From Mesonia aquimarina (GTDB taxonomy: Bacteria > Bacteroidota > Bacteroidia > Flavobacteriales > Flavobacteriaceae), in contig NZ_RCNV01000010.1 in NCBI RefSeq assembly GCF_003667275.1, positions 62,001-126,000 on the forward strand: a DNA stretch of 64,000 nucleotides, written 5' to 3'. The first letter of the stretch is position 1, and each line of letters begins with the position of its first letter. The notes under the pieces were generated by a model that saw only the letters and a list, made by a program, of their open reading frames with translations, was not told the DNA's origin and did no database searches. Below, in pieces: positions 12,763 to 56,680 of this stretch. Position numbers and translations under genes: made by a program.

Positions 12763-13213
12763 TACTAGGAACTAGGGACTAGAAATTAGGACTAGGATTT
12801 TGATTTTCTATAAGAAATAAGACCGCTCAGCATTTTTCCGATTTCATCAACTTGTTTATTGCAGTTTTCATAATCATTATTACTTATATAATTTAAGTTA
12901 TGGGCAATTAACAACTGTGTTTCTAATTCTGAATTACTTCCTAAAGCAATATACAAAAACTGAATAAATTCTTTATTTGTTTGTCGAGCAGCTCCTTCAG
13001 ATATATTTGATGACACAGAAACTGCAGCTCTTCGTATTTGATTTGTTAAACCATATATTTCTTCCTTAGGGAAAGATTGTGTGGATGAATAAATTTGAGT
13101 AACTAAGCTTATTGACTTCTTCCAAACCTTTAAATCTTTATGTGTTCTAATCATTCGATTTTATTCACTTCTATTTACTAACTCCTAATTTCTAATCCCT
13201 AGTTCCTAATCAC
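12763..13213. repeat. Inverted repeats bracketing a four-helix-bundle gene
   Basis: The left arm is 12763-12794 (CTAGGAACTAGGGACTAG...) and the right arm 13182-13213 (...TAATCCCTAGTTCCTAATC). The two can pair over about 31 bases with about four mismatches. The left arm overlaps the stop codon of the enclosed gene; the right arm begins 28 bases upstream of its start. In the - strand transcript this would form a stem enclosing the whole reading frame. Confidence 0.7.
12792..13154 (-). CDS. Four-helix-bundle protein, 23S rRNA IVS family (copy 1)
   Basis: 120 residues. It shows the pattern of the S23/IVS family: HKDLKVWKKSISL in helix 1, FPKEEIYGLTNQIRRAA between helices 1 and 2, then VSSNISEGAAR, FLYIALGSNSELETQL, and a final helix. 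The family was named from reading frames within intervening sequences of 23S rRNA; free-standing copies and the DGR protein Avd share the fold and form pentamers that bind nucleic acid. Here it sits between GT4 and PglC genes in operon orientation, within inverted repeats. Three more copies are in this window. Confidence 0.85.
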   Translation of the reverse strand: MIRTHKDLKVWKKSISLVTQIYSSTQSFPKEEIYGLTNQIRRAAVSVSSNISEGAARQTNKEFIQFLYIALGSNSELETQLLIAHNLNYISNNDYENCNKQVDEIGKMLSGLISYRKSKS

Positions 13214-13233
13214 CATTACCAAGTTCCTAGTCA

Positions 13234-14481
13234 CTATCTTCTTCCCACTACTTTTTCTAATTCTGTGAGGTACTTATTCGCCAAGAAAGAGCGATCAAAA
13301 TGTTTTTTGGCATAGGTATATCCATTTTGGCCCATTAGATGTAATTGTTCGTGGGGTGTATTGTATAATTTTCTGACCTTTTCAGCGATGTCTGTGGGAT
13401 TTTCCGGTTCGACATAGACTCCGCAATCGGCTTCTTCCACCAGTGTTCTTGACACGCCATCTATAGCCAATAAAATTGGTTTTTTACAGGACATATAATC
13501 AAACGTCTTATTTGAGTAAATGGTTTTAAACGTATCTACTTTTTTTAATACGGATGTACCCATATCTGACGCTAAAATATATTTAAACACTTCAGCTTTT
13601 GCTACCGGATCTCGAAAAATCACATTAGAAAGTTTCCTTTGTTCAACTTCTTGTTGCAACATTTCTTTTTGCATTCCACTTCCGATGAATTGAAATACTA
13701 CGGGAATATCTTTCAATAATTCTGCAGCTTCAATCAATTGAATTAAATGGTTGGCTACCCCGTGAGCTCCTACATAGGTAATCACAAATTTGTTTTCTAA
13801 ACCTAATTCTTTTTTAAAATTTTGAGGGTCAAAATTTTCTTGTACCTTTTCGGCTAAGCTAAAATCGGCTGCATTCGGTATAAAACATATCTTTTCTTTC
13901 GGTACGCCTTTTTGAATCAGTTTTTCCCGAAAAGCCGGGGTTAATACATTTATGCGCTTTGCTCTTTTATACATAAAGTTTTCAAATGCATAGGCCATTT
14001 TAATGATCCATTTATTTGTTAACACACCGGTATCAATAGCCGATTCAGGCCAAAGGTCGCGCACTTCAAAAACAAAGGGAATACGTTTTAATCGAGAAAG
14101 CACGTAGGCTGATGCTCCCACAAATAAAGGAGGGGAAGTCACTAAGATAATATCAAATTTCTTTTCCGTATTAAAGAGACCTGCCCATATAGCAGAAAAC
14201 ATAAAGGAGAAATACCCCCAAAGCCTGCCTAGAAAATTCACATTGTAACTTTCGGACACATGGCAACGAATCACATCTAATTTCTCATAAAAGTTTAGAT
14301 CTTTATAAAAGTATTTTCCTTGATAACGTTTAGGTTTTTTCCCTGTTGTATAATTTACCATCCCGGCTAGAACTGTAATTTCATGACCTTGTTCTTGCCA
14401 TAAGCGGGTCATTTCATTAAACCGTGAACCTCCACCTTCGTCCTTTTCTAAAAAATATTGATGTATAAGTAGTATGCGCAT
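13234..14481 (-). CDS. GT4-family glycosyltransferase (WbuB-like)
   Basis: 415 residues with a GT-B layout. The N-terminal half starts MRILLIHQYF and has the Gly-rich GGGSRFNEM loop and EVRDLWPES. The C-terminal half has VITYVGAHG (start of the donor domain), then SDMGTSVLKK and SNKTFDYMSCKKPILL, where the usual EXnE donor-binding glutamates are partly replaced. This is the WbuB/WcaI-type branch common in O-antigen and capsule loci; many members use UDP-GlcNAc/FucNAc-type donors. It probably adds a sugar to the lipid-linked unit begun by the PglC-like enzyme downstream. It is one of only two obvious glycosyltransferase candidates in the locus. Confidence 0.85.
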   Translation of the reverse strand: MRILLIHQYFLEKDEGGGSRFNEMTRLWQEQGHEITVLAGMVNYTTGKKPKRYQGKYFYKDLNFYEKLDVIRCHVSESYNVNFLGRLWGYFSFMFSAIWAGLFNTEKKFDIILVTSPPLFVGASAYVLSRLKRIPFVFEVRDLWPESAIDTGVLTNKWIIKMAYAFENFMYKRAKRINVLTPAFREKLIQKGVPKEKICFIPNAADFSLAEKVQENFDPQNFKKELGLENKFVITYVGAHGVANHLIQLIEAAELLKDIPVVFQFIGSGMQKEMLQQEVEQRKLSNVIFRDPVAKAEVFKYILASDMGTSVLKKVDTFKTIYSNKTFDYMSCKKPILLAIDGVSRTLVEEADCGVYVEPENPTDIAEKVRKLYNTPHEQLHLMGQNGYTYAKKHFDRSFLANKYLTELEKVVGRR

Positions 14482-14698
14482 TTATTTTGCTATTCTTTAT
14501 AAAATTAACTTCTCTGTAATCCGAGGGTTAAACTTGTATTTAATGTGCTTTCTTTTTAAGAATGTCATTCCGAGGTAGGAGAAATCTTTTATTTCCGAAA
14601 CGAAGAGATTCTTCATTACACTTCTTTACATTCAGAATGACATGTTTCCAAAATAAGATTCTTCACTGCGCTTTGACTTCGTTCAGAATGACAGGTAA
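14482..14698. repeat. Short repeat gap
   Basis: The right part (about 14563-14695) holds two degenerate copies of the TGTCATTC...GAATGACA type elements. No gene is present. Confidence 0.6.
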
Positions 14699-16573: not shown

Positions 16574-16576
16574 ATT

Positions 16577-20656: not shown

Positions 20657-20668
20657 ATGCTATTTTTA

Positions 20669-27725: not shown

Positions 27726-27726
27726 C

Positions 27727-34179: not shown

Positions 34180-35052
34180 CTAGCCTTTTATCACTTGTTT
34201 TAAATACTCAAAGTAATCGCCTTTCATGCCTTTTAGTTGTTGAGTTACTTGATTTTTGTTAACCCATTTATTACGTAAGGCTATTTCTTCTACACAGGCT
34301 ATTTTTAAGCCGGTGCGCTTCTCAACAGCTTTTACAAATTCCGTAGCTTCGGTTAAGGCTTCATGTGTTCCTGTATCTAACCAAGCGAAGCCTCTGCCTA
34401 ATAATTCTAATTTTAAATTGTTTGCCGCTAAATAAGCTCCGTTTACGGAGGTGATTTCTAATTCTCCTCGTGCTGAAGGGCTTACCGCTTTTGCTTTCTG
34501 AATTACCGAATTGGGATAGTAATACAAACCGATTACCGCATAATTGGATTTTGGTGCTTTTGGTTTTTCTTGAATGCTCAGTACATTTCCTTCTTCATCA
34601 AACTCCGCCACCCCATAACGCTCCGGATCGTTTACATTATACCCGAAAATAACCGCTTTTTCATCTTCTTGTACCGTTTTAACCGCCTGTTGTAACTTCT
34701 GACTCAAGCCTGCTCCGTAAAATATATTATCGCCCAAGACCAAACACACATCATCTCCCCCAATAAATTCCTCTCCGATAAGAAAGGCTTGTGCCAAGCC
34801 ATCGGGACTCGGTTGTTCTTTATACGATAGATTTAAGCCCAACTGACTCCCATCGCCTAATAATTTTTGAAAATTAGGTAAATCGTGTGGCGTACTGATG
34901 ATTAGGATCTCCCGTATGCCCGATAACATTAAAACGGATAAGGGATAATAAATCATCGGTTTATCATATACCGGCAGTAATTGCTTACTCACCGCTACCG
35001 TTAATGGATGCAATCGCGTCCCTGCACCCCCGGCTAAGATTATTCCTTTCAT
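34180..35052 (-). CDS. rmlA: Glucose-1-phosphate thymidylyltransferase
   Basis: 290 residues, the standard RmlA length. N-terminal [14 protein letters not shown], followed by [45 protein letters not shown] and a C-terminal helix region with [15 protein letters not shown]. It makes dTDP-glucose for the rhamnose pathway. The other three genes of the pathway are upstream in the same operon, but 1.16 kb of repeats separates it from rmlD. Confidence 0.95.
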
Positions 35053-36208
35053 GGTTGTTTTGTTATCTAGTTATGGTGTTATGGTTTATCAAGCGGTAAG
35101 CTTTAAGCATTTTGCTTTAGGCTGTAGTTTTTTTTGTTGTCTTGCTTTATGTTATATGCTTTAAACTGTAGGCATATTTTAAATAAAGTCCCTTCTTTTT
35201 TAATTAACGTATTAATTTATTCCCGCTTTCAACTTCCAGCTTCCGTTTTCGACTTCAAAACACTTCGACAGGTTTAAAGTGATAACAGGAATGTCATGCT
35301 GAGCTTGTCGAAGCATTTGTGAATACTAACAGTTTTCAATATTGTAACAATTGCATTATCAATCTTTAAGCTCTTATCGTTAACATTGTAAAATATGGAC
35401 TATTAAATTTATTATTCATTTTTTACTCACCCACTTAATTATTGTTAAAGTGTTCGTGAATCGTTGATTTCCATTGATGAAAAAATGCATTCCTCTCCCG
35501 TTGGTCGTCGGATGCACTAAAAATCTAGGCTTAAGAAACTAGCTCTAAATTTATTGATTGGCTCCTAAATTTTAGGAACTCTCCCGATAGCTATCGGGAC
35601 CATCGGGGCTCAAACAGCCTAAAATTGCCAACGCGACAGGCTGGCTCTCTCACTAAAATAGTCCACAGGACTATTTTTTAACGTTCAGCCCTTCTTCAAA
35701 TTTTACGAGCCATTTTCTGTAGGCCGGTTTATTTTAAACTATAAATGATTTCTTAAAAAAGAATTTCTAGCTTCTAACTTCCAGCTTCAACATTCAACAT
35801 TCAACATTATTTAACAATTAAAAACACTTCGACAGTTCCGATAGTCCCGATGGTTATCGGGATCGGAACAGTGTGACAGATCATTTTCAAATTTTCAAAT
35901 TATTCCATTATCACATCAACCCCTTCCAGCTTCCGCCTTCAAACTTCAATCATTCAAAATTCAAAACTCAAAACTCAAAACTCATAACTGCATAACAACA
36001 TCACTCGATAACTCGATAACTGCATAACTTCAAAACACTTCGACAGGCTCAGTGTGACATTTTCATTTTCATATTAACTCATTATCCCATCAACACATCA
36101 ACACATCAACCTCTTCCAACTTCTAATTTCTAGTTTCTAGTTTCTAGTTTCTAGTTTCAAACATTCAACATTATTCATTCAACAATTGAAAACTTTCAAC
36201 AAACAACA
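35053..36208. repeat. 1.16-kb repeat gap between rmlA and rmlD
   Basis: There is no gene. Contains the second copy of the 438-bp element (35291-35728), an interrupted REP-like word with a nested palindrome (about 35826-35878), REP-like words at about 35263 and 36020, ACTCATAACT-type words (35955-36015) and TTCTAGT heptamers (36125-36165). Confidence 0.85.
35291..35728. repeat. 438-bp structured repeat, copy 2
   Basis: Same length and order as 951-1388. The conserved hairpins are CCCGATAGCTATCGGGA (about 35583-35600) and AATAGTCC-ACA-GGACTATT (about 35658-35676). Differences cluster in the first 150 bases. Confidence 0.85.
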
Positions 36209-37608: not shown

Positions 37609-37813
37609 TGGGGTTTGTTTTGTTATGAGGTTATGCTGATATGGGGTTATGTTGTAATGTTGTAATGCTGTTATGTTGTTATCTTGTTATATTATTATAC
37701 TCATAACTACATCACTGGATATCTCCATAACTATTTTATTGTTATGGGGTTATGTTGTAATGCTGTTATGTTGTAATGCTGTTATGTTGTAATGCTGATA
37801 TGTTGTTATGGGG

Positions 37814-38170
37814 TTATAGGGTTTTAATTAATTTTGAAATCATTCTTCGAATGTAAATGATTCGATCTGAAACCAAATCAACTTGAGTAACTTCCGCTAA
37901 ATAATTCAATCGAATAGCAATTTCAAATTGGGTTTCTAACTCTGACAGAGAACCTAAAGCTATATATAAAAACCTACAAAATTCCTTTTTTCCTTTTCTT
38001 CCTGCTCCTTCTGCTATATTCGACGGAACCGAAACAGCCGATCTTCTTATTTGACTTGTCAACCCATATAATTCTTCATTAGGAAAAGCCTTAGATATTC
38101 TATAAACATCCTCTACTAAATCCATACTTTCCTTCCATAATGTTAAATCTTTATGTGAGTTGATGGTCAT
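37814..38170 (-). CDS. Four-helix-bundle protein, 23S rRNA IVS family (copy 2)
   Basis: 118 residues. HKDLTLWKESMDLV, FPNEELYGLTSQIRRSA, VPSNIAEGAGR, FLYIALGSLSELETQF: the family motifs are nearly identical to copy 1 at key positions, while the rest differs. It lies between rmlB and rmlC in operon orientation. It is flanked by units of the same minisatellite on both sides (37680-37810 and 38180-38600), as if inserted into the array or as if the array grew around it. Confidence 0.85.
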   Translation of the reverse strand: MTINSHKDLTLWKESMDLVEDVYRISKAFPNEELYGLTSQIRRSAVSVPSNIAEGAGRKGKKEFCRFLYIALGSLSELETQFEIAIRLNYLAEVTQVDLVSDRIIYIRRMISKLIKTL

Positions 38171-38614
38171 TATTTTATTGTTATGGCGTTATCTTGTTAT
38201 CTTGTTATGTTGTTATGATGTTATGTTGTTATCTTGTTATCTTGTTATATTAGTATACTCATAACTACATCACTGGATATCTCCATAACTATTTTATTGT
38301 TATTTTATTGCTATGCTGCTATGTTGTTATCCTGTTATCCTGTTATGTTGTTATCCTGTTATGTTAGTATACCCATAACTACATCACTTGATATCTCCAT
38401 AACTATTTGATTATTATTTTATTGCTATGCTGATATGTTGTTATCCTGTTATCCTGTTATGTTAGTATACTCATAACTACATCAATTGATATCTTCATAA
38501 CTATTTGATTATTATTTTATTGCTATGCTGCTATGTTGTTATCTTGTTATGTTGTTATGTTAGTATACTCATAACTACCTCACAGCGTAACTTTGTAACA
38601 ACTTTAATTTGCTA
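38171..38614. repeat. Minisatellite of about 98-114-bp units
   Basis: Four units share ACTCATAACTACATCA...ATATC and end with runs of TGTTATC/TGTTATG. The ACTC/ACCC landmarks fall at 38257, 38371, 38469 and 38567. An isolated unit lies at 37698, on the other side of the four-helix-bundle gene. There is no gene. Confidence 0.85.
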
Positions 38615-39715: not shown

Positions 39716-41006
39716 AATTAATACTACTCTTCTTGTCCTGTGAAATAAGATTTGAGCCATATGCTTTAGGCGAGTTTCTATAATAAGGCTTCGGATTCAA
39801 AACACTTCAACAGGCTCAGTGTGACACTCAACTACTGTCATATTGAGCGAAGGAACGGAGTCAAAATATCTTTCAGTTGTGAAGAAGAAGATTTCTCGAT
39901 TTCATTTAGATTCATTTGCTGTTATGCTGTTACAAGTTATCTTGTTATGCGGTTATGCAGTTGTCTTGTTATGATGTTATCTGGTTATGGTGTTATCTTG
40001 TGTTGCAATATGCCATATGCTTTATGCTGTAAGCTATAGTTTTGTTATGGAGTTATGCTGTTATGGTGTTACACGCTGTAAGCTTTAAGCGGTATGCTTT
40101 AAGTTAGTTTCTGAAAAAGGTTTTTTGTTTGCATTTCATTCCTCTCGTTCGAAATCAAAAAGATTAATATACCTAGCTAACCGCTAATAACTAAAGGGTT
40201 ATTGCTACAAACCTACTTCTCGATAAAATTACTCCTTTCGTCGTAATCACTCGAAGTGACAGCTCATATAAGCTAAAAAAGACCCTTCATTTTCAAATTA
40301 ACATATTAATTTATTCTAACTTCAAACTTCCAGCTTATAACATTTAACATTTAACATTATTCATTTAACAATTGAAAACACTTCGACAAGCTCAGTGTGA
40401 CACTCGACTACTGTCATATTGAGCGAAGGAACGGAGTCGAAATATCTTTCCGTCGTGAAGAAGAAGGTTTCTCGATTTCATTTAGATTCATTTCCTGTTA
40501 TGCTGTTACAAGTTACCTTGTTATTGAGTTATCTTGTGATGCAATATGCCATATGCTTTATGCTGTAAGCTATAGTTTTGTTATGGGGTTATGCAGTTAT
40601 CTTGTTATGATGTAGTTTAGTTTCGCCTTGTCCGTTCGAGTGTTTTTAAGCACAATTCAATACTTCTCGATAAAATTACTCCTTTCGTCGCAATCACTCG
40701 AAGTGACAGCTCATATAAGCTAAAAAAGACCCTTCATTTTCAAATTAATATATTAATTTATTCTAGCTTCAAACTTCCAGCTTAAAACATTAAACATTTA
40801 ACATTATTCATTTAACAATTGAAAACACTTCGACAGGCTCAGTGTGACACTCGACTACTGTCATATTGAGCGGAGGAACGGAGTCGAAATATCATTCCGT
40901 CGTGAATAAGAAGACGCTTCGACTTCATTTCATTTCGCTCAGCGTGACAAATATTTTTCAAAATTCAGTATTAAACATTCAACATTATTCATTCAACATT
41001 AAACAC
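39716..41006. repeat. 1.3-kb repeat gap with two related halves
   Basis: There is no gene. It holds three 91-bp elements beginning at 39836, 40412 and 40859; the first two are cut at the same point (followed by CATTTAGATTCATTT), the third is complete to 40949. Each is preceded by a REP-like word CTTCGACAGGCTCAGTGTGACA. The stretch 40200-40610 and the stretch 40650-40900 repeat the same word order. Confidence 0.8.
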
Positions 41007-42131: not shown

Positions 42132-42440
42132 CTATCCGTTACCTTTTTGGTGTTGAGTATAGTTCTTTGCATATTCCTTTAGCCTTTCCCAATCTTTATT
42201 AATCAAGGCTTCCTTTTTCTTACGAGTCCAACCTTTTAATTGTTTCTCTTTTAAAATAGCTAAATTAACATCAGTAAACGCAGCATACCATTTAAGCTTA
42301 ACAGGTCTTCTCAAATAAGTATAAGAATCTTTATCCATGCCTATATTATGTTCTTCAACTCTTTCGAATACGTTAGATGTTACTCCTATATAATAAGAGC
42401 TGTCTAAACATTCTACGATGTAAACATAATATAGTTTCAT
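42132..42440 (-). CDS. Single-domain GIY-YIG nuclease (second copy)
   Basis: 102 residues. YYVYIVECL, SYYIGVTSNVFERVEEHN, and LKEKQLKGWTRKKKEALI reproduce the GIY-YIG motif set of the protein at 10527-10832, with low identity elsewhere. It lies between the UpxY-type gene and the winged-helix gene, in operon orientation, with REP-like words within 20-60 bases on both sides. The host function is unknown. Confidence 0.85.
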   Translation of the reverse strand: MKLYYVYIVECLDSSYYIGVTSNVFERVEEHNIGMDKDSYTYLRRPVKLKWYAAFTDVNLAILKEKQLKGWTRKKKEALINKDWERLKEYAKNYTQHQKGNG

Positions 42441-42697: not shown

Positions 42698-43183
42698 TTA
42701 AACCGCCTCTACTTGGGCTTTTGAAAGCTCTACGCTTAGTGAGCAATTTAACTGCTCTAATTGCAAACAGACTCGGTTTTTTTGTTGTCGTATCACCACT
42801 CCGTTTTTCCCTTCAAACACCCCGTGTTTTACACGCAATTGTTGTCCGGGCTCATAGTGTGTTATAGCAATGGTTTCGGCAGCATAGTCATTAAAAAAGG
42901 CTTGCACCGATTGCATTTCTTTTTCTGAAATAACCGCCGGTTGTTGCAACCAATAGACAAAAGCCACCACACCCGGGGTTTTTAATACCTCCAAGCGATT
43001 TTTTGCTGTCGTTTTAACAAACACATACGAAGAAAAATAAGGAACCTGTACTTTTTTCTTGCGATCGCTCCATTGGCGAACTTCCGTTTTTAACGGGCAA
43101 TACGCCTCGAAACCTTGTTGGTCTAAGCGATCGTTAACTTTCTTCTCCGCCCTGCTTTTTACATATACTGCATACCACTGCAT
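42698..43183 (-). CDS. UpxY-type specialised NusG transcription antiterminator
   Basis: 161 residues. NusG N-terminal domain (MQWYAVYVKSRAEKKVNDRL, CPLKTEVRQWSDRKKK, PYFSSYVFVKTT, VLKTPGVVAFVYW) plus a C-terminal KOW-like part with QQLRVKHGVFEGKNGVV. UpxY/RfaH-type proteins bind RNA polymerase near the start of one long operon and prevent early termination. It is the first gene after a strong promoter and precedes more than 30 kb of co-directional polysaccharide genes, the classic position. Such activity would be needed here because the operon includes many hairpin-rich gaps. Confidence 0.9.
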   Translation of the reverse strand: MQWYAVYVKSRAEKKVNDRLDQQGFEAYCPLKTEVRQWSDRKKKVQVPYFSSYVFVKTTAKNRLEVLKTPGVVAFVYWLQQPAVISEKEMQSVQAFFNDYAAETIAITHYEPGQQLRVKHGVFEGKNGVVIRQQKNRVCLQLEQLNCSLSVELSKAQVEAV

Positions 43184-43214
43184 AAACGAGTAGTTTTTTT
43201 ACTCAAACTAACGA

Positions 43215-43245
43215 CAAATATAGAATATTCGTTTTATTTTACAAA
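43215..43245 (-). promoter_or_regulatory. Bacteroidota promoter of the polysaccharide operon
   Basis: On the - strand a TTTG (43242-43245) is followed after exactly 19 bases by TATATTTG (43215-43222). This matches the primary sigma consensus TTTG-N19-TAnnTTTG at every fixed base. The start codon of the UpxY-type gene is about 31 bases downstream. Confidence 0.85.
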
Positions 43246-44258
43246 CGCTTTTGTTAAACAAAGCATTAGGAGAATGTTAAGTTATGGAGTTATCTTGTTA
43301 TGGGGTTATGTTGTTATGTCGTTATGTTGTTATGGGGTATCAGGCGGTAAGCTTTAAGCATTTTGCTTTAGGCGTATTTCAATAACATAGGTTGCTTTCA
43401 AAACACTTCGACAATTTCGATGGTTATCGGGATCGGAACCATCGGGGATCAAACAGCCTAAAATTTTATGCAGCCGGCTCTGCAAATTTTACGAGCTATT
43501 TTCTATAGGCCGGTTTTTCTCAACTATAAATAATTTTTTTTTGAAAGAATTTTTAGTTTCCTTTCATCTCTTCTCTATATTCTTTTTTCTTTTTATTAAA
43601 AGCAATACACTTTAAGCTATACGCTTGTTCCTAAACAATTATCCTTCATTTTCAAAAACACTTCGACAGGCTCAGTGTGACAGATCATTTTCAAATTTTC
43701 AAATTATTCCATTATCATATCAACCCCTTCCAGCTTCTAACTTCCAGCTTCAAACATTCAACATTAAACATTAATCATTTGACAATTAAAAACACTTCGA
43801 CAGGCTCAGTGTGACAGCACGTATGTCATGCTGAGCTTGTCGAAGCATTAGTTAATGCTTGTAATAGCTAAATAACTATCAGTTGAGCAGAAGAAGATTT
43901 CTCGACTTCATTTGGATTCATTTCCTGTTATGCTGTTACAAGTTAGCTTGTTATGGTGTTTTATTTTTATGCTGTTTGCTGCATGATATATGCTTTAGAC
44001 TGTAGGCGTATTTTAAATAAAACCCCTTCATTTTTAAATTAACGTATTAATTTATTCTAGCTTCTAACTTCCAGCTTCCGTTTTCGACTTCAAAACACTT
44101 CGACAGGCTCAGTGTGACATTTTAATTCAAAATTTTCAAATTGATCTATTACCACATTAATCCTTTTCAGCTTTAACCTTTAAACGTCAAACATTCATCA
44201 TTCAACATTCATCATTCAACATTCAACATTCAACATTTAAAACTATCCCTCTATAAAC
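43246..44258. repeat. Repeat gap between the polysaccharide operon and cysN
   Basis: There is no gene. Contains TTATGTTG-type words, a shortened copy of the 438-bp element (43437-43515), REP-like words at about 43658 and 44095, the perfect REP hairpin at 43797-43847, and ATTCAAC heptamers (44200-44240). Confidence 0.8.
43797..43847. repeat. REP-like long hairpin
   Basis: CTTCGACAGGCTCAGTGTGACA is followed after seven bases by its near-perfect reverse complement TGTCATGCTGAGCTTGTCGAAG. The 22-base arms have about two mismatches. Single arms are scattered through the window in both orientations; this is the only tightly paired one I found. Confidence 0.85.
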
Positions 44259-44290
44259 AAAAAAATCCCAAGCTATGCTCGGGAATTTTA
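44259..44290 (-). terminator. Rho-independent terminator after cysN
   Basis: On the - strand TTCCCGAGC-ATA-GCTTGGGA is followed by seven T. It ends the cysDN transcript about 100 bases after the cysN stop. Confidence 0.85.
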
Positions 44291-44389
44291 TACTACTTAA
44301 ATAAGTGCTCACTTATCACTTACAGCTTATTGCCTATTGCATATTGCTTAAGGCTTAAGGCTTAAGGCTTATTGCTTCATACCACAAAA

Positions 44390-45646: not shown

Positions 45647-45721
45647 GGTAATCGCTTTATACTTTAGGCTTTAAGCCGTAAGCTTAATCCCTATATTTTT
45701 AACAAATACGTTGTTTTATAA

Positions 45722-46078
45722 TTAACTTTTCAGTTTCTGACTCAAACGATACAATTTACGCTTGACGTGATTCACCTTCTCATTTAACTCTTCAGAAGTC
45801 GTATAATCAATAAAATTTAAATCCTTACTTAATAGAATAAAATATTCTAATTCATGAGCAGAACCTAAGCTGATTTGAACAAACCGATTAAAATCTTTAT
45901 CCGAATCCCTACCGCATCCTTCACTAAAATTAGATGGAATTGAATAGGCAGCTCTTCTCATTTGTGATATTAGTTGATACTTTTCATCTTGAGGGTAATT
46001 GCTTGTCAATTTATAAATATCAAGTGTCAATTTATGTGACAGTTTCCAAACCTCATATTTACTAAAATCCCTCATCAA
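45722..46078 (-). CDS. Four-helix-bundle protein, 23S rRNA IVS family (copy 3)
   Basis: 118 residues. KYEVWKLSHKLTLDIY, YPQDEKYQLISQMRRAA, IPSNFSEGCGR, FVQISLGSAHELEYFI, then a long basic C-terminal helix. Divergent from the other three copies, so not a recent duplicate. It is placed between cysD and cysN, genes that are normally adjacent and coupled, in the same orientation. Flanks are A+T rich; I see no convincing inverted repeat here. Confidence 0.85.
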   Translation of the reverse strand: MMRDFSKYEVWKLSHKLTLDIYKLTSNYPQDEKYQLISQMRRAAYSIPSNFSEGCGRDSDKDFNRFVQISLGSAHELEYFILLSKDLNFIDYTTSEELNEKVNHVKRKLYRLSQKLKS

Positions 46079-46140
46079 AATTCTTTTAAGTGGTTAAAAA
46101 ACAGCTAAAAGCTTAGTGCTAATAGCTTACTGCTTAGTAA

Positions 46141-47046
46141 TTAGAAATACCCTTCCCGTTTACGGTCTTCCATAGCTGTTTCTGAACGCTTATCATCGGT
46201 TCGATTACCACGCTCTGTCTGCCGCATGGCCGATACCTCTAAGGCTATTTTCTCTAAGGTATCTGCATCACTCTCGATCCCGCCCGTAATGGTAATATCG
46301 CCTAAGGTTCTAAACCGAATTTTTTTGGTAAGAATTTCTTCATGATCTTCTAACTGCAGGTATTCGGAATTCGGAATCCACGAACCGTTTCGCAACACCA
46401 CTTCTCGCTCATGTGCAAAATACAAGGAAGGAATCTCAATATTCTCTCGCTTGATATAATTCCACACATCCATTTCAGTCCAATTACTAATTGGAAAAGC
46501 TCTAAAATGCTCTCCTTCAAAATGCTTACCGTTGAGTAAGTTCCATAATTCCGGACGTTGGTTTTTAGGATCCCATTGTCCAAAATCATCTCGATGTGAA
46601 AAGAAACGTTCTTTGGCACGGGCCTTTTCTTCATCGCGTCGGCCTCCCCCAATGGCACAATCAACTTTATTAGATTCAATTGCATCTAACAAGGTGGTAA
46701 TTTGCAAGGCATTTCGAGTAGCATTTTTCCCTTTTTCCTCTTGCACCCGTCCTTGATCAATCGATTCTTGAACCGAGCCCACGATAAGCCGCGCTCCTAG
46801 ATTTTCGATTAAATCATCACGAAACTGAATAGTTTCCGGAAAATTATGTCCGGTATCCACGTGCATTAAGGCAAAGGGTATATTTGCCGGGTAAAAAGCT
46901 TTTTTAGCCAGGTGGGTGACTAAAATGGAGTCTTTTCCACCGGAAAATAAAATTACCGGATTCTGAAATTGCGCGTGTACCTCTCGTAAAATATAAATCG
47001 CTTCCGATTCTAATTCATCGAGGTAATTTAAATAGTATTTATTCAT
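46141..47046 (-). CDS. cysD: Sulfate adenylyltransferase subunit 2
   Basis: 301 residues. PP-loop ATPase motif PVILFSGGKDSILV, LMHVDTGHNFPETI, the CAIGGGRRDEEKARAKER block and FRAFPISNWTEMDVW are all CysD hallmarks, as is the C-terminal ERGNRTDDKRSETAMEDRKREGYF-type tail. It forms the adenylyl-transferring subunit with CysN. No PAPS reductase gene is visible, and an APS kinase gene is nearby, so the sulfate may be destined for transfer to carbohydrate rather than for assimilation. Confidence 0.95.
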   Translation of the reverse strand: MNKYYLNYLDELESEAIYILREVHAQFQNPVILFSGGKDSILVTHLAKKAFYPANIPFALMHVDTGHNFPETIQFRDDLIENLGARLIVGSVQESIDQGRVQEEKGKNATRNALQITTLLDAIESNKVDCAIGGGRRDEEKARAKERFFSHRDDFGQWDPKNQRPELWNLLNGKHFEGEHFRAFPISNWTEMDVWNYIKRENIEIPSLYFAHEREVVLRNGSWIPNSEYLQLEDHEEILTKKIRFRTLGDITITGGIESDADTLEKIALEVSAMRQTERGNRTDDKRSETAMEDRKREGYF

Positions 47047-47100
47047 AATGCTGGCATTATCTAGGTTATTACTTTTTTATTGTTTTTGTATTTTAGGCTG

Positions 47101-47579
47101 TAGGCTGTACGCTAGTTTTTTTTTAGAAACAAGAGACACGAACCAAGAAACAGGACTCTTTTTCTATAGTAAACAAAAGAGTTAATTGTCATGCTGTTCC
47201 GATAGCTATCGGAATCGATTCAGCATCTCATCCTTTTTTATTCATCAGTTAATAGCTAACAGTTTTCAGTTACTAAATTAGTTTAGGTTTTCTTCATAAA
47301 GGAATTTAAAATTCTACATTTTTTAAAAGCGTTATGCTTTAAGCGCTAAGCTGTAAGCGAATTTCTAAAAAAGACACCTTAGCTTCAAAACACTTCAACA
47401 TTTATCATTTTAAGACAATTAGTACTCTATTAAATTTCTTCATTTTCAAATTTTCAAATTGATCCATGATCACATAAACCTCTTCTAGCCTCCAGACTCA
47501 AGCTTCAAATCAACATTCTTTTCTACATATTCTTTACTCTTTTTTCTTATTATTGAAAGCTGTACGCAATATGCTTTAG
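47101..47579. repeat. 480-bp direct repeat, left copy
   Basis: It matches 49021-49502 closely from TAGGCTGTACGCTAG to TGTACGCAATATGCT. The chief difference is a palindrome TTCCGATAGCTATCGGAA near 47191-47208, absent from the other copy. The remaining bases up to 47875 repeat its first 60 bases and then hold TTCTAGT heptamers; no gene lies in 47047-47875. Confidence 0.88.
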
Positions 47580-47875
47580 GCTGTACGCTAGTTTTTTTTA
47601 GAAACAAGAGACACGAAACAAGAACCAGGACTCTTTTCATTTTCAAGTTAAGACTTCCCCGACTTCTAACTTCAAACATCCAGCTTCCAACATTCAACAT
47701 TATTCATTATTCATTAAACAATTGAAAAACACTTCGACAGCTCCGTATGACAATTTCATTTTCAAATCAACACATCAGCACATCAACCCCTTCCAACTTT
47801 CAACTTCAAGCTTCAAGCTTCTAGCTTCTAGCTTCTAGTTTCTAGTTTCTAGTTTCTAGTTTCAACATTAATAAT

Positions 47876-48463: not shown

Positions 48464-48896
48464 GTTCTCTCTCTTTTGTTAATCCGTAAGACGATTTATA
48501 CCATACCCGCTCATGGAGGTAATACAACAACATTTTGGTGATCACTTCAGCCAAACCAATCTGTAATCCGGCCATAGGATCTCCCGAAATGATCCACGCT
48601 AAGGTCATGGTATCCAGCGTTCCTACTAACCGCCAGGTAAGTGTTTTAGCGATATGCCGCTTCCGACTTTCGAGAATTTCACCTTCTTTGGACAAGTTTA
48701 AATTAAACCACACCCGTTCATGGAGGTAATACAACAGCATTTTAGTCACCACCTCTGCTACTCCGATACTCAAACCTAGCAATGGATCGCCGGTAATTAG
48801 CCAAGATAATAAAATGGTATCGATAGTCCCAACCATACGCCAGGTAATGGTTTTAGCGATATGTCGCTTTCGTGAACTATGGTGTTGATTTTTCAA
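48450..48896 (-). CDS. Membrane protein with two tandem DUF2061 domains
   Basis: 148 residues made of two similar halves (about 8-66 and 79-137). Each begins SRKRHIAKT, has W-R-VGT or W-R-LVGT, a hydrophobic segment with ISGDP or ITGDP, and ends with the same stretch of MLLYYLHERVW. DUF2061 proteins are small membrane proteins regularly found beside cysC/cysDN genes. A role in sulfate uptake or sulfation has been suggested by such context but is not shown. Overlaps cysC by 14 bases. Confidence 0.85.
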   Translation of the reverse strand: MKNQHHSSRKRHIAKTITWRMVGTIDTILLSWLITGDPLLGLSIGVAEVVTKMLLYYLHERVWFNLNLSKEGEILESRKRHIAKTLTWRLVGTLDTMTLAWIISGDPMAGLQIGLAEVITKMLLYYLHERVWYKSSYGLTKEREHGYE

Positions 48897-49020
48897 GCTT
48901 TACTATTATATTAATTAAGCGATGATCAAATTTTTTACAAATAACTTAAAACCTACAATTCCCACCAAATTTATAGGAGTTAAAATTTAAATTTTTTTAA
49001 AAGCTGTAGCCAGTATGCTT

Positions 49021-49502
49021 TAGGCTGTACGCTAGTTTTTTTAGAAACAAGAGACACGAACCAAGAAACAGGACTCTTTTTCTATAGTAAACAAAAGAGC
49101 TAATTGTCATGCTGAACTCGATTCAGCATCTCATCCTTTTTTATTCATCAGTTAATAGCTAACAGTTTTCAGTTACTAAATTAGTTTAGGTTTTCTTCAT
49201 AAAGGAATTTAAAATTCAACATTTTTTAAAAGCGTTATGCTTTAAGCGCTAAGCTGTAAGCTGTAAGCGAATTTCTAAAAAAGGACACCTTACCTTCAAA
49301 ACACTTCAACATTTATCATTTTAAGTCAATTAGTACTCTATTAAATTTCTTCATTTTCAAATTTTCAAATTGATCCATGATCACATAAACCTCTTCTAAC
49401 CTCTAGACTCAAGCTTCAAATCAACATTCTTTTCTACATATTCTTTGCTCTTTTTTCTCTGCTCTCCAAATTATTAAAAGCTGTACGCAATATGCTCTAA
49501 GC
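49021..49502. repeat. 480-bp direct repeat, right copy
   Basis: Second copy of 47101-47579. Where the left copy has the palindrome near 47191 this copy reads GCTGAACTCGATTCAGC. A small TGTAAGC duplication is present near 49254-49268. Confidence 0.88.
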
Positions 49503-50236
49503 TATATTCTAATCTTTATAGAAAATGAAACAGGACTCTTTTCGTTTTCAAGTTAAAACTTCCCCGTCTTCTAACTTTAAACATCAAACATTAAACAAGC
49601 CTTTATTTTTCAAATTGATTCATTAAACATTCAACCTTAAACATTATTCATTCAACAATCATAAAACACTCTAACAGACCTGGGGTGACAATCGGCTACT
49701 GTCATATTGAGCGAAGAAACGGAGTCGAAATATCTTTCTGTTATGAAAAGAAGAAAATTTTCGGTTTCCTTGATTTCATTTCTTGTTATGTTGTTACAAG
49801 TTATCTTGATATGGTGTTGGGTTGTTAGCTTTAAGCTATAAGCTTTACGCTATAAGCAGCATTCATTATACAGCTTCTATTGATAGCTGGTTATTTTTTT
49901 GCGAGTGGAATTTAACATTTAACATTCAACCTTCAACAATCAAAATACACTTCGACAAGCTCAGTGTGACACTCGGCTTTTAATCTATTGAGCGAAGCAA
50001 AAGAGGCGAAATATCGTTTCGTTATTAAAGAAGAAGGCACTTGGGTTTCACAAATGTCATGCTGAACTTGTTTCAGCATCTCATTGCGGGTAGCTGTAAG
50101 CTATAGGCTTTACGATATAAGCAGCTTTTAGTATACAGTTTCTAATGACAGTTTGTTATTTCTTTGAGAGTGGAATTCAATCTTCAATAGTTAACCTTCG
50201 ACAATTAAGGTTAAACATTATTCAAAACGTAAACGA
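49503..50236. repeat. Repeat gap
   Basis: There is no gene. Contains the left half of a 91-bp element from 49700, a REP-like word at about 49950, TAAGCTATAAGCTTTACG-type words (49828-49855 and 50093-50125) and a TGTCATGCTGAACTTG word near 50055. Confidence 0.7.
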
Positions 50237-50792: not shown

Positions 50793-50889
50793 ATAAAAAT
50801 ACAACAGTCTAGTTACACAGCCTAAAAATAACTTTAAATTTCTAAGGCTATTTTTTTATATTATTTAAGTCAGTGTTATAATTAAATCC

Positions 50890-52035: not shown

Positions 52036-52040
52036 ACATA

Positions 52041-52192: not shown

Positions 52193-52214
52193 CTATTCGA
52201 AATTAAAATGATGG

Positions 52215-52658: not shown

Positions 52659-52763
52659 AGCTAATTTTTTATTTAAATTTAGCATACAAACCGATTGCAA
52701 GTGAATTAATTAACTATGATTAACAACTGATTTAACGAAGATTAACGAATAAAAATAAAATGA

Positions 52764-53603
52764 CTAATTATTAATTTGTTCAACGTTTTTTTCTTGATAA
52801 ATAGCACGTTTAGGAATTGGAATTTTAATTCCGTTTTCATCAAGCGCCTTTTTTACCGCTTCAAGCTGCTCCCAATAAACCGGCCAATAATCTACCGATT
52901 CTACCCAACAACGTGCAACAACTTTCAATTCATATTCTCCTATTTCATCCAGCCATACATCCGGTGGTATTCGCTTTATTATTCTAGGATGTTTGTAAAG
53001 TGTGTTAATAATGATCTCGCGCACATGATCTATATCAGCTTCATAAGAAAATTTCAATTTTAAATCTATTCTGCGTTCATGCTCCATTGTTCGGTTATCT
53101 ACATCACTATTGGAAACATTTCCATTAGGCATGGTAATTATCCTGCCGTCAAAAGTTTTAATTCGCGTATAAAGGATATCAATTTTTTGAACAAAGCCTA
53201 AATTATTATTGACATGAATTAAATCTCCGACTTTAAAAGGCTTAAAAACCAATATTAAAACTCCGCCTGCAAAATTCGCTAAACTTCCCTGTAGAGCTAA
53301 ACCGATGGCAATTCCAGCAGCACCGAAAATTGCTAAAAAAGAAGCGGTCTTAATTCCTAAAATTGAACCAATTATAAAAAACAAAAAACCATACAGTAAA
53401 AAAATAGAGAGACTTTCAATAAAGGTAGTTAAAGATAATTCTACTTTAGATTTTCGAAGGATATTCTTTAAAATTCGCATTGAAATTTTAATCACAAAAA
53501 TTCCTAAGAGTAAGCATATTAAAGCATAAATTATATTAGGCCCTATTTCTACTAGAAAATTTAAGAATTGTGATTTTACTTCAGTCCAAAAACTTATATC
53601 CAT
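52764..53603 (-). CDS. Small mechanosensitive channel (MscS family)
   Basis: 279 residues from the ATG at 53603. Three membrane segments (about 15-45, 58-80, 88-115), the last with the pore signature GAAGIAIGLALQGSLANFAGG, then the beta domain starting FKPFKVGDLI and a cytoplasmic alpha/beta domain. It would open under membrane tension to release solutes. Starts 22 bases after the gene for a PH-like membrane protein, so probably the same transcript. Confidence 0.9.
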   Translation of the reverse strand: MDISFWTEVKSQFLNFLVEIGPNIIYALICLLLGIFVIKISMRILKNILRKSKVELSLTTFIESLSIFLLYGFLFFIIGSILGIKTASFLAIFGAAGIAIGLALQGSLANFAGGVLILVFKPFKVGDLIHVNNNLGFVQKIDILYTRIKTFDGRIITMPNGNVSNSDVDNRTMEHERRIDLKLKFSYEADIDHVREIIINTLYKHPRIIKRIPPDVWLDEIGEYELKVVARCWVESVDYWPVYWEQLEAVKKALDENGIKIPIPKRAIYQEKNVEQINN

Positions 53604-53625
53604 CGCTTGTATTTTAAAGCTTAAT

Positions 53626-54120
53626 TTACAATTTTTTCTGATCAAGTCTTTGTTGTGCTTGCATCAAACTTTTTTGCAATTCTTGATATTGTGTTGTTGC
53701 TATAATTATTTTTTCAGGTTGGTTTTTTAACCGAAAACTTAAACCCAGACCAGATTGAGCACAAAAAAAGGTTTTGCCTCCATAGCCCAATTTCCAACCC
53801 ATTCCGTAATACCAAGGAATAGTTTCTTTCTGAAAACTATCTGTCTTTATTTCATCTATCGTATAAGCTTTTCTTATACGTCCTGCACCAAAACGTAAAC
53901 ACAGTTCATTTTCACTAACTTCAATTCTTAATTGATACAAATGATAAAATAACAAGCACAGAAAAACTAAGGAAATTAATAAGGTTAACACTGCTAATTG
54001 ATTAGCTGCTGGATTTAACAGTAGATTTACAATAGCTATTGACACAAACAAAATCAGCATCCCCACAGGAATGCTGATAATATAACTTATAATTCTTTCT
54101 TTATATAAAATACGACTCAT
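53626..54120 (-). CDS. Membrane protein with bacterial PH-like domain
   Basis: 164 residues. Two hydrophobic helices (about 14-33 and 40-62) are followed by a beta-rich region (LRIEVSENELCLRFGAGRI, then YTIDEIKTDSF, ending in a helix) that fits a bPH-type domain. Its function is unknown. The ATG overlaps the stop of the E1 gene (TAATG), so it is translated as the next gene of that operon. Confidence 0.65.
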   Translation of the reverse strand: MSRILYKERIISYIISIPVGMLILFVSIAIVNLLLNPAANQLAVLTLLISLVFLCLLFYHLYQLRIEVSENELCLRFGAGRIRKAYTIDEIKTDSFQKETIPWYYGMGWKLGYGGKTFFCAQSGLGLSFRLKNQPEKIIIATTQYQELQKSLMQAQQRLDQKKL

Positions 54121-56222
54121 TAATAAGCAAAGATTTCTTGAATTTTAGCTTTTACTTTTTCAGTTGAAGGAATCATTGTTTCTTCTAAGGTAGAATTCAA
54201 TGGGATTGCAGGCATATTTTCTGAACCAATCGTCATAACCGGTGCATCTAAATATTTAAAACACTCTTCCTGAATTTTACCCGATAATGCTCTAGCAAAC
54301 GTATTATCTGAAGGTTCTTCAGTAACTACTAAACATTTCCCACATTTTTTAACCGATTTCATAATGGTTTCTTCATCCAGCGGAGAAAGTGTACGTAAAT
54401 CGACTACTTCAATTTGATCTTGCATTCCTAATTCTTCGGAAGCGTTCATCGCCCAATGCACGCCCATTCCATAAGTAATAATAGACAAAGTTTCTTTTTC
54501 TTCTTGCTTCCAAATTTCTTGCAACACCCAAGCTTTCCCGAAAGGCAACACGTAATCTTCACTTGGTTCTACTGAAGTTGCCCCTTTTGTTCCGGGAACT
54601 TTGCTCCAGTATAAACCTTTATGTTCAAAAATCACTACCGGATTTGGATCGTAATAGGCTGCTTTCATCAATCCTTTTAAATCTGCTCCATTACTCGGAT
54701 AAGCAATTTTTAATCCGCGGATATTGGTCACCACACTTTCTACGGAAGAAGAATGATATGGACCACCGCTTCCATAAGCGCCAATCGGAACACGAAGAAT
54801 CATTGAAACAGGCCATTTTCCGTTAGATAAGTAACAGCTTCTACTTACTTCTGTAAATAACTGATTTAAGCCCGGCCAAATGTAATCTGCAAATTGAACC
54901 TCGACAATAGGTTTTAAACCAACAGCTGACATTCCTACCGTTGACCCGACGATAAATGCTTCTTGAATAGGTGTATTAAAGACGCGATTATCTCCAAATT
55001 TCTGTGCTAAAGTTGCGGCTTCACGAAAAACACCGCCTAATCTTCCACCAACATCTTGTCCGTAAAGCAAACATTCTTTGTGTTTTTTCATCAGTTCTTC
55101 AACTGCGAAAAGGGCACAATCTACCATCACTACTTTTTCAGCTCCTTCGGGAGAGCGTTCTCCTTTTTCTTCGGTGATCGGCGTCGGAGCAAAATCATGC
55201 GTAAATAAATCTTCCGGTTTGGGATCTTCTGCCGCTAAAGCTTCTTGATAACTTTCCTTTACTTTTACGCTAGCCAAAGCTTCAATAGCTTCTAATTCAT
55301 CTTCCGTAAAATCATTTTTAGCGAGCATTTCTTTCATCTTCGGATAAGGATCGCGTGTTTTTGCTTCCTCCAAATCATCTCGATAAAATTCCATTCGCAC
55401 GCCGGAAGTATGGTGATTTAGCAAAGGAACTTTTGCATGAATAAGCATTGGTCTTCTTTCCTTCCGGATAGTTTCTAAAGCTTTATTAATGGTAGTATAA
55501 CTTTCTTCAAAATCAGTTCCATCAATACTAATTGCCTCTAAACCTTTAAAGCCTTGTGCATATTCTGCTGCATTTTGAGCTCTTGTTTCTGCTTCACTGG
55601 CAGAAATATCCCAACCATTATCTTGCACCACATATAAAATTGGCAATTGCTTTAACACAGCCATTTGAAAAGCTTCAGCAATTTCCCCCTCGGTAACACA
55701 AGCATCCCCTAAGGAGCAAACTACAACCGGCTTTTCATTATTTTCTAAGGCTTTATCATGCCCCATATCTTTAAAAAAGGCATATTGCTCGTCGGCTTTA
55801 AAAAGATCTCCCCCTTCACGATAATACATCCCTAAAGCAACACCGGTAGCCGGAATTGCCTGCATTCCTGTTGCTGAACTTTGATGAGGAATTTTAGGTT
55901 TATCGGCATCTTTTAAACTCGGATGCGAATAATAGGTTCTTCCTCCCGAAAAAGGATCGTCTTTTTTTGCCAGCACCTGCAACATTAAATCTTTAGGCTC
56001 CATTCCGATTCCTAATAAAATTGAATCATCTCGGTAATATGGAAAAACATAATCTTGCGGTAAAAGCTGCATTCCAACTGCTGTCTGAATTATTTCATGT
56101 CCTCGAGAGGTTGCATGCACGTATTTAGATACTGTTTTAAAGTTCTCTTCATATAAATCTGTCATTGCCTTTGCTGTACAAAGGTTTGAGAATGCTTTTT
56201 TGAATATATCTTTGGTTATCAT
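54120..56222 (-). CDS. 2-oxoacid dehydrogenase E1, fused alpha and beta subunits
   Basis: 700 residues. The alpha part (about 1-330) holds the thiamine diphosphate motif GDACVTEGE...QDNGWDIS and the HTSGVRMEFYRDDLEEAK end; the beta part (about 360-700) holds GQDVGGRLGGVF, TPIQEAFIVGSTVGMSA, VQFADYIWPG, RVPIGAYGSGGPYHSSS, and VVTEEPSDN. This is the fused form common in Bacteroidota, probably the branched-chain 2-oxoacid dehydrogenase that supplies starters for iso-fatty acids. The E2 gene lies upstream in the same operon, with a four-helix-bundle gene between them. Confidence 0.92.
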   Translation of the reverse strand: MITKDIFKKAFSNLCTAKAMTDLYEENFKTVSKYVHATSRGHEIIQTAVGMQLLPQDYVFPYYRDDSILLGIGMEPKDLMLQVLAKKDDPFSGGRTYYSHPSLKDADKPKIPHQSSATGMQAIPATGVALGMYYREGGDLFKADEQYAFFKDMGHDKALENNEKPVVVCSLGDACVTEGEIAEAFQMAVLKQLPILYVVQDNGWDISASEAETRAQNAAEYAQGFKGLEAISIDGTDFEESYTTINKALETIRKERRPMLIHAKVPLLNHHTSGVRMEFYRDDLEEAKTRDPYPKMKEMLAKNDFTEDELEAIEALASVKVKESYQEALAAEDPKPEDLFTHDFAPTPITEEKGERSPEGAEKVVMVDCALFAVEELMKKHKECLLYGQDVGGRLGGVFREAATLAQKFGDNRVFNTPIQEAFIVGSTVGMSAVGLKPIVEVQFADYIWPGLNQLFTEVSRSCYLSNGKWPVSMILRVPIGAYGSGGPYHSSSVESVVTNIRGLKIAYPSNGADLKGLMKAAYYDPNPVVIFEHKGLYWSKVPGTKGATSVEPSEDYVLPFGKAWVLQEIWKQEEKETLSIITYGMGVHWAMNASEELGMQDQIEVVDLRTLSPLDEETIMKSVKKCGKCLVVTEEPSDNTFARALSGKIQEECFKYLDAPVMTIGSENMPAIPLNSTLEETMIPSTEKVKAKIQEIFAY

Positions 56223-56266
56223 TTTTTTATTTTTTATTCATTTTTAGAACCACGACACACGACTTT

Positions 56267-56680
56267 TTTGAATCAAGACACTTTAAGAGTCAAGACTGTC
56301 AATAAAATTCGAAATTTTACTTTGTAATTTTTGTGCATTATTTATTAAACTCAGATATTTTTCTTCCGGAAGAAAATTTTGACGAAAACAAACTGTCAGC
56401 TGGGTTTCCCATTCATAAGTAGAGCCCAAACTATCTTCTAAGTATTTTACAAAATGCTTATCGGTTCTTTTACTAGATCCTTCTGAAATATTTGAGGCAA
56501 TGGAAACAGAACAACGATTCATTTGACTTCTCAATCCAAATTTTTCATAATCTGGCAAAGTAGAAGTGAAAGAATAATTTTCATCAATCAAATCCATAGC
56601 TTCTATCCAGATTTGTAATTTTTTAAAGTTATGTCGTCTCATTTTACCCCTGTCTTGTTTCTACTTGTCTTGTTTCAAAA
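56267..56680. repeat. Inverted repeats bracketing four-helix-bundle copy 4
   Basis: The left arm is 56267-56297 (GAATCAAGACACTTTAAGAG then TCAAGAC) and the right arm 56652-56680 (GTCTTGTTTCTACTTGTC then TTGTTTCAAAA). They can pair over about 29 bases with a 2-base bulge and a few mismatches. The left arm overlaps the end of the enclosed gene, the right arm ends just inside the E2 gene. Confidence 0.6.
56283..56642 (-). CDS. Four-helix-bundle protein, 23S rRNA IVS family (copy 4)
   Basis: 119 residues. KKLQIWIEAMDLIDENY, LPDYEKFGLRSQMNRCS, IASNISEGSSK, YLEDSLGSTYEWETQL. The most divergent of the four copies. It lies between the E2 and E1 genes of the 2-oxoacid dehydrogenase operon in the same orientation, bracketed by imperfect inverted repeats whose downstream arm overlaps its stop codon, as for copy 1. 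Confidence 0.85.
   Translation of the reverse strand: MRRHNFKKLQIWIEAMDLIDENYSFTSTLPDYEKFGLRSQMNRCSVSIASNISEGSSKRTDKHFVKYLEDSLGSTYEWETQLTVCFRQNFLPEEKYLSLINNAQKLQSKISNFIDSLDS

Follow-up and report, generated by a model that had tools for sequence, protein, structure and literature searches.

A 64,000-nucleotide stretch of the Mesonia aquimarina genome (contig NZ_RCNV01000010.1, positions 62,001 to 126,000; here called the window) contains four genes of the IVP family, also named S23 or four helix bundle protein (profiles PF05635 in Pfam and TIGR02436), each placed between two genes that run in its own direction. We think it rather probable that these genes belong to elements of the intervening sequence (IVS) type that have entered the mRNAs of operons. 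In larger sets of IVP genes, the two flanking sequences (arms) are inverted matches beyond chance, they show a 7-nucleotide (nt) period, the gene nearly always reads in sense with its host operon, and the same junctions are empty, decayed, or differently filled in related genomes.

The first-pass annotation of the window had named four divergent four-helix-bundle genes, and their open reading frames (ORFs) are confirmed. All four score above the curated cut-offs of both profiles (for PF05635, 107.8 to 146.6 bits against a cut-off of 33.8), and each is the only ORF of at least 90 amino acids (aa) in its gap. All lie on the minus strand and share the direction of both neighbors, as the annotation had read them. 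Its further claim that they split operon partners stands for cysD/cysN and rmlB/rmlC, whose products score over the hidden Markov model (HMM) cut-offs. The E2 and E1-beta-like chains (below equivalog cut-offs) and the PglC/WcaJ-type sugar phosphotransferase beside IVP gene 1 are best-match assignments, and the ORF at 13234-14481, which had been labeled GT4, has no NCBIfam match at an E value of 1e-60. The genome holds 11 family members in 3.28 Mb, 4 of them inside the 64-kb window. The neighbors are protein coding and an Rfam scan of the window gave no match at all, including rRNA and introns; the elements are thus not rRNA IVSs by location, and a group I or II intron was rejected because no Rfam intron match reached the gathering score in the window. 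The Mesonia aquimarina assembly has no match to 23S rRNA.

Arm pairing, the seven-nucleotide period, and selection on the protein

Three of the four window elements have terminal inverted repeats that form a closing stem, one of the features of an rRNA IVS. The count of two bracketed genes in the first-pass annotation was therefore an underestimate, if anything, and the element at rmlB-rmlC is the one without such flanks. The GT4-pglC arms form a duplex of 46 pairs with -55 kcal/mol, the E2-E1 arms form an imperfect inverted match over 31 columns, and the cysD-cysN arms form a duplex of -30.0 kcal/mol. When an arm's own partner was ranked together with arms from 89 other loci, it came first at GT4-pglC and E2-E1, fourth at cysD-cysN, and 23rd at rmlB-rmlC. 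Minimum free energy (MFE) folds of the whole gaps contain 35 arm-arm pairs at GT4-pglC, 16 at E2-E1, and 22 at cysD-cysN. The rmlB-rmlC flanks share a 78-nt direct match between 8-mer arrays; this 1-kb gap of long repeats gives 60 arm-arm MFE pairs with 36.5 expected, which need not represent a closing stem.

The idea of a stem also holds statistically in larger samples. The first set comprised 114 distinct IVP ORFs, some of them fragments, taken from the same genome, its congeners, and family and order representatives; a filter for at least 100 aa and both neighbors in view left 95, and arm statistics refer to the 90 in sense to both neighbors. The inverted-match score of own arms was 24.7, compared with 15.4 for permuted partners (standard deviation [SD], 0.39; maximum of 5000 permutations, 17.1) and with 17.4 for 24 ordinary genes that have a gap on each side (Mann-Whitney P = 8.5e-6). 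When a single member per site group was kept, the values were 23.5 and 15.4 (SD, 0.57). Duplex energies were -24.0 for own arms versus -14.25 (SD, 0.46), and at least 20 pairs formed in 82 of the 90. Furthermore, when arms were exchanged between genomes that share a site, they paired less well than own arms in 54 of 75 comparisons (Wilcoxon P = 7e-6, with members treated as independent). The two arms of an element thus tend to coevolve.

The cross-phylum set was drawn from the best 80 of at least 578 relatives in named genomes, using an alignment of 11 members and one conserved peptide pattern, and covers Bacteroidota, candidate phyla, Acidobacteria, Clostridia, Planctomycetes, archaea, and others. 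Five of 12 plasmid matches, all cyanobacterial, were added, and removal of members shorter than 95 aa or lacking a neighbor reduced 90 to 79. Here, own arms scored 32.7 and permuted partners 15.9 (SD, 0.47; n = 79); without plasmid loci, the scores were 32.1 and 15.9 (n = 74). None of the 80 cross-phylum loci has an rRNA match, and these members are not rRNA inserts, despite the family name. On average, arms of different loci have no common sequence (mean cross-locus similarity of 15.3, equal to 15.3 for shuffled arms), which makes it unlikely that the ends are recognized through a sequence they have in common. This result and the single ORF per window gap speak against an insertion sequence or a miniature inverted-repeat transposable element (MITE).

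Gaps beside IVP genes have a strong period of 7 nt. On the two sides of the gene, lag-7 z values were 27.8 and 24.8 in the first set and 19.8 and 22.9 in the cross-phylum set, compared with 1.5 for random stretches of the same genome and with 4.5 and 7.8 for other gaps of IVP loci. In the same four sets of IVP gaps, z was 11 to 18 at lag 14, was weak at lag 8 (1.9 to 6.1), and stayed at or below 2 for the remaining lags between 4 and 15. Runs of clear heptamers were counted in 25 of 186 and 46 of 148 arms, versus 0 of 57, 3 of 59, and 4 of 63 control gaps. The unit is specific to the locus (genomes and loci carry our own G and L numbers), for example, TTCTCAG in L325, GGGAGTA in L358, and GTGGTTA in L288, and a few arms have units of another length, such as 9 nt in L293. 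Among 17 related genomes, the number of heptamer arrays rises with the number of IVP genes (Spearman coefficient, 0.57; P = 0.018), with no array in the 8 genomes with two or fewer IVPs and 8 arrays in the 9 genomes with four or more, 4 of which have none. This correlation comes from samples of 100 kb (240 kb for G000) with too few arrays and with phylogeny uncontrolled; it is only suggestive, and we set it aside as proof.

Median dN/dS values of 0.08 to 0.29 in six site groups (3 to 22 usable pairs each) reveal purifying selection. Thus, the IVP protein is very probably made, and it very probably matters to the element or to the host. By sequence, the solved relatives are 2gsc and 2rld. The Xanthomonas protein is described as a pentamer and the IVP/S23 family as having no known function (PMC4990558).

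Orientation, sites, and their changing contents

In the first set, 90 of 95 IVP genes are in sense to both neighbors and all 95 are in sense to the downstream neighbor. One of the five exceptions (L194) is an artifact of the choice of ORF start, with E2 lying in sense upstream. Among controls, 159 of 209 neighboring pairs and 119 of 197 triples are codirectional. Site groups, which were formed by neighbor similarity with fragments included and labeled by the best HMM match of one representative, are entirely sense in 37 of 39 cases. The cross-phylum set has 62 sense genes at 68 codirectional junctions (P = 8e-13), or 60 of 63 without plasmid loci, and 11 more members at mixed junctions. Random orientation in a larger sample would have spoken against the reading in the first-pass annotation; orientation is not random. 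A universal sense rule was rejected on account of six antisense cases, which leave a strong bias. One antisense gene, at 2435-2869 of L358 (Nostoc edaphicum plasmid pNe_5), lies between two ribonucleotide reductase genes and has near-perfect GGGAGTA heptamer arms.

The sites involve many pathways. By number of genomes, they are fadB-fadA (17), E2-E1 and paaG-paaH (9 each), fadA-fadE (5, or 7 by eye), hemF-hemB and paaH-thioesterase (5 each), sufA-sufB, enoyl-CoA hydratase-paaY, and the position before hutU (4 each), cysD-cysN (3), and scoA-scoB, paaD-paaG, ruvX-def, and rmlB-rmlA (2 each), with others besides; the FadB, PaaG, PaaH, and PaaY labels are below equivalog cut-offs. Membership per genome of the genus is patchy, from 0 to 11. 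Clusters were observed among loci L187, L192, L215, and L221, with five IVP genes within 20 kb in G011 (C2, 148509-167533) and three within 6 kb in G002 (C3, 316804-321993), partly between phenylacetate-degradation (paa-like) genes. A comparable order, gmk, four helix bundle protein, nadD, is given in a published table for Flavobacterium columnare, as part of a region that is listed there as phage (PMC5524665).

Empty or otherwise filled sites, on whose existence in related genomes the first-pass annotation had staked its reading, do occur. At cysD-cysN, an IVP ORF is present in 3 of 21 loci, from two separate clades (G000 with G010, and G005), and absent from 18. Of the 16 genomes in the genus, 15 were surveyed at the E2-E1 junction (G009 was left out because the E2 frame is broken in that locus). 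The junction exists in seven different states: an IVP of one clade in eight genomes, an IVP from a distant clade, with arms of another sequence, in one (G003), a PDDEXK_3 gene with CGCAAAG-type arms in two (G012 and G014), a GIY-YIG gene next to the remaining start of a decayed IVP in one (G010), an IVP relic with arms in one (G002), palindromic repeats only in one (G004), and a 30-nt gap in one (G008). The only two PDDEXK_3 (PF13366) matches in the 16 genomes are both at this junction (L095, 2896-3273, in G012, and the gap of L102 in G014). At fadA-fadE, 19 loci with fadE were read by eye (G089, with another downstream gene, was not counted). Seven have an IVP (two cut by the end of the locus, and the G000 copy with its start out of frame), one has a relic, two have inverted hairpins without an ORF (G043 and G065), two have tandem arrays only (G005 and G010), two have other palindromes (G002 and G014), and five have short or plain gaps. 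In the IVP tree, in which deep forks are partly unresolved, fadB-fadA is held by at least three separate clades and E2-E1 and cysD-cysN are held by two each. Relatives were found on 12 plasmid records (10 with at least 80% coverage; query IVP 4 only) and on 1 phage record (query IVP 1 only), all at less than 60% identity, so that nothing points to a phage or plasmid as the vehicle of the window copies.

GIY-YIG genes appear as an alternative cargo. The GIY-YIG gene of the window listed in Table 1 is a related arrangement with another cargo, and a second PF01541 gene lies at 10527-10832. Arms of GIY-YIG genes match (24.0 versus 17.1; SD, 0.71) for the 37 small ORFs in the loci examined, which are part of all matches, and 25 of the 27 at codirectional junctions are sense and 2 are antisense (33 have both neighbors). 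The arms lack a 7-nt period, and the idea that GIY-YIG elements are heptamer elements too was rejected. Three congeners have a GIY-YIG ORF nested within an IVP ORF, at the most conserved motif of the latter, SVPSN/EG. An 11-bp inverted repeat (ACCTGTGAAAT / ATTTCACAGGT, with one mismatch in L227) bounds this inner element.

Table 1. Coordinates of IVP genes, arms, and GIY-YIG genes (window positions unless a locus is named)
Feature	Position	Strand	Description
Downstream arm, element 1	12766..12791		7-nt units TAGGAAC TAGGGAC TAGAAAT TAGG; abuts stop codon; 25/26 bp inverted match to 13183-13208
IVP gene 1	12792..13154	-	PF05635 146.6 bits; between glycosyltransferase gene and pglC/wcaJ-type gene; site common to congener G012
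Upstream arm, element 1	13183..13208		Inverted match to 12766-12791
Octamer tandem array downstream of IVP gene 2	37609..37813		Direct, not inverted
IVP gene 2	37814..38170	-	PF05635 132.2 bits; between rmlB and rmlC
Octamer arrays and repeated module upstream of IVP gene 2	38171..38614		Direct
GIY-YIG gene	42132..42440	-	PF01541 54.1 bits; bracketed by inverted CTTCGACAGGCTCAGTATGAC-like / CTTCGACAGGCTCAG-like repeats, inverted-match score 34
Core of downstream arm, element 3	45672..45684		13-bp core partner of 46124-46136
IVP gene 3	45722..46078	-	PF05635 125 bits; between cysD and cysN
Core of upstream arm, element 3	46124..46136		AGCTTACTGCTTA; 12/13 to 45672-45684
Downstream arm, element 4	56266..56296		Overlaps IVP stop codon; inverted match to 56652-56680
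IVP gene 4	56283..56642	-	PF05635 107.8 bits; between E2 and E1 genes of 2-oxoacid dehydrogenase (best matches)
Upstream arm, element 4	56652..56680		Overlaps E2 stop codon
GIY-YIG-in-IVP loci	L223 2477-3160; L225 2420-3140; L227 2465-3130	L225 minus	Two IVP subfamilies by eye

The window is rich in repeats away from the IVP genes as well: the 17.3 kb of intergenic DNA there contain 33 heptamer and 16 octamer arrays, compared with 1 heptamer and 0 octamer arrays in 17.9 kb of intergenic DNA from the rest of the genome (twelve 20-kb stretches). A recurring composite of heptamer and octamer families (GCTTTAG, TTCTAGT, AACATTC, TTATGTTG, and CATCAACA, plus CTTCGACAGGCTCAGTGTGACA), in an order that is similar by eye, occupies the intergenic regions 821-2594, 35052-36208, 39760-41006, 43183-44389, 47046-47875, and 48896-50236.

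A proposed mechanism and its alternatives

An element of the proposed kind is a compact insert of about 450 to 500 nt, in which the IVP gene lies between an upstream and a downstream arm that are reverse complements of each other. Its arms differ from those of other elements, often consist of tandem 7-nt (less often 8-nt) units, and tend to keep matching as they change. The different states of one site would have arisen by insertion into junctions of codirectional, presumably cotranscribed genes, nearly always in sense, and the element may bring its arms along or may settle in local repeats. The RNA of the host operon would then contain a long closing stem, and the loop of this stem would hold the IVP message in translatable form. 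By analogy with the 23S rRNA IVSs, a double-strand-specific RNase (RNase III) may cut this stem, free the IVP message, and split the operon transcript. Since the cut would leave both mRNA halves translatable, we propose that insertion is nearly harmless. The IVP itself is a conserved four-helix bundle protein, and a solved relative forms a pentameric ring. Its probable target is the hairpin of the element that encodes it, bound as RNA or as DNA, and the protein probably favors the survival or copying of that element. Spread and turnover would be slow.

Several observations weigh against such mRNA elements. The near flanks at rmlB-rmlC have no notable inverted match (score of 15). Three window elements have arms from repeat families that are dispersed in the window (with the element itself counted, 4 and 10 matches for the two arms at GT4-pglC, 69 and 52 at rmlB-rmlC, and 4 and 3 at cysD-cysN; the E2-E1 arms match only themselves), and the arms may therefore be local repeats rather than something carried by the element. 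Other gaps near IVP genes carry a lag-7 signal to some extent, and when 12 of 14 matches are required at lag 7, as a strict test, heptamers are clear in only 31 of 100 first-set and 41 of 90 cross-phylum loci. Swapped arms pair better than own arms at 5 of 19 multimember sites, with one tie, and the z values and permutations are uncorrected for kinship, except by the grouping by site. Six of the 79 cross-phylum IVPs are antisense and could not be read from the host mRNA. Most site groups appear to be inherited vertically within the genus, so that movement would have to be slow, and no transposase was seen in the gaps. Exact insertion boundaries are not fixed, and target duplications were sought by eye only, in gaps that have diverged too far. 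Finally, the S23 protein borne by the Coxiella rRNA is reported to be probably not made (PMC4990558), which sets it apart from the proteins under selection described here.

The main rival account is one in which the hairpin acts in DNA, where its shape would be recognized by the IVP or by a host enzyme; the sense bias would then reflect selection against antisense genes in operons, and cutting of messages would be absent or incidental. This account fits well with the inverted hairpins or arrays without an ORF at the same junctions (G043, G065, G005, and G010), with the antisense IVPs between codirectional genes, which are still armed (mean score of 42.0; n = 6), and with the dispersal of arm families and heptamer arrays through the intergenic DNA of the window. 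It fits less well with a sense bias of 62 to 6, and of 37 of 39 site groups, which is stronger than a DNA mechanism alone predicts, and the lack, on average, of cross-locus arm similarity speaks against recognition of shared end sequences. Overall, we regard it as rather unlikely.

Two further accounts assign the genes to the host. If the stems were regulatory hairpins that tune the ratio of the flanking products through attenuation or stability, with the IVP as an autoregulator kept for the benefit of the host, then placement between subunits or consecutive enzymes (cysD-cysN, scoA-scoB, sufA-sufB, and fadB-fadA) would follow, as would the tendency of arms to coevolve. However, the same junctions lack an IVP in other genomes of the genus and the sites are spread over many different pathways, which makes this an improbable explanation. 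The IVPs could also be ordinary small genes with a cellular job, surrounded by the neutral clutter of a repeat-rich genome. Purifying selection, long retention (at E2-E1, the same clade is found in 8 of 16 genomes), and a window region full of repeats with or without IVP genes all agree with that. The specificity of arms for their own partners, the higher score of IVP genes relative to control genes, the patchy presence, and the alternation of IVP, PDDEXK_3, and GIY-YIG at one site do not, and we consider it very doubtful.

Relation to known elements and repeats

The 23S rRNA IVSs of Coxiella and Leptospira share with the elements described here the protein family, a stem of terminal inverted repeats around the ORF, and an ORF within a host RNA; in Coxiella, the IVS has a 28-bp terminal stem, is excised by RNase III, and carries two or three tandem GACAGAT heptamers before the S23 ORF (PMC4990558). 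By contrast, the elements described here have protein operons as hosts, purifying selection acts on their proteins, and cutting is proposed by analogy. In rRNA insertion elements of the candidate phyla radiation, IVP ORFs occupy sites dominated by other families, mostly LAGLIDADG with some GIY-YIG (PMC11270868). Those elements lie in 16S and 23S rRNA, whereas IVP, GIY-YIG, and PDDEXK_3 alternate here at one operon junction. The Avd protein of diversity-generating retroelements is said to be homologous to IVP in sequence and structure (PMC10053308). However, IVP 1 and IVP 3 are only weak DivGenRetAVD matches (47.1 and 21.0 bits against the equivalog cut-off of 80), and IVP 2 and IVP 4 have no listed match at E values up to 0.001; a role of the window IVPs as Avd was rejected on these scores.

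The overrepresentation of heptamer arrays between bacterial genes is a recorded puzzle (PMC4692102, PMC4679880). The published units TAACTGA (PMC4679880) and GGGAATC and GGGGA(C/T)T (PMC4692102) resemble the arms in being tandem, 7 nt long, and intergenic, and they occur sporadically in Bacteroidetes, Cyanobacteria, and Gammaproteobacteria, for example, between pecE and pecF. They differ in having been treated as tandem arrays with other proposed partners, which in PMC4679880 is a post-transcriptional regulator; neither main text contains the terms S23, intervening, or four helix. The literature searched, which covered few subscription papers, contained neither a link of the IVP family to bacterial heptamer repeats nor a description of IVP genes as operon inserts flanked by inverted heptamers. 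As a tentative extension, about which we have more doubt than belief, the IVP might be the missing partner of these repeats, with the arrays being the arms, solo relics, or targets of phylum-crossing IVP elements of mRNA (and, in some lineages, of rRNA), and with IVP rings acting on hairpins of 7-nt units in the way that RAYT transposases act on repetitive extragenic palindromic (REP) sequences.

The IVP/S23 family is large, with at least 578 relatives, and it was named after rRNA inserts. If the proposal is true for many of its members, the family gains a habitat and an anatomy, as mRNA intervening elements with locus-specific heptamer arms, and operon messages gain a possible new class of processing sites. 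The overrepresented 7-nt intergenic repeats (PMC4692102, PMC4679880) would likewise gain a candidate protein.

The general form, a small palindromic intergenic repeat with an associated gene, is familiar. It is seen in MITEs and in REP sequences and bacterial interspersed mosaic elements (BIMEs) with their RAYT transposase, and the hairpins of REP/RAYT and IS200/IS605 elements act as single-stranded DNA. The IVP elements differ from REP/BIME-RAYT systems and MITEs in that no transposase is seen in the element and in that the arms are specific to the locus, with no shared terminal sequence. The components of the arrangement proposed here are known, and it is their combination that is new relative to the literature searched.

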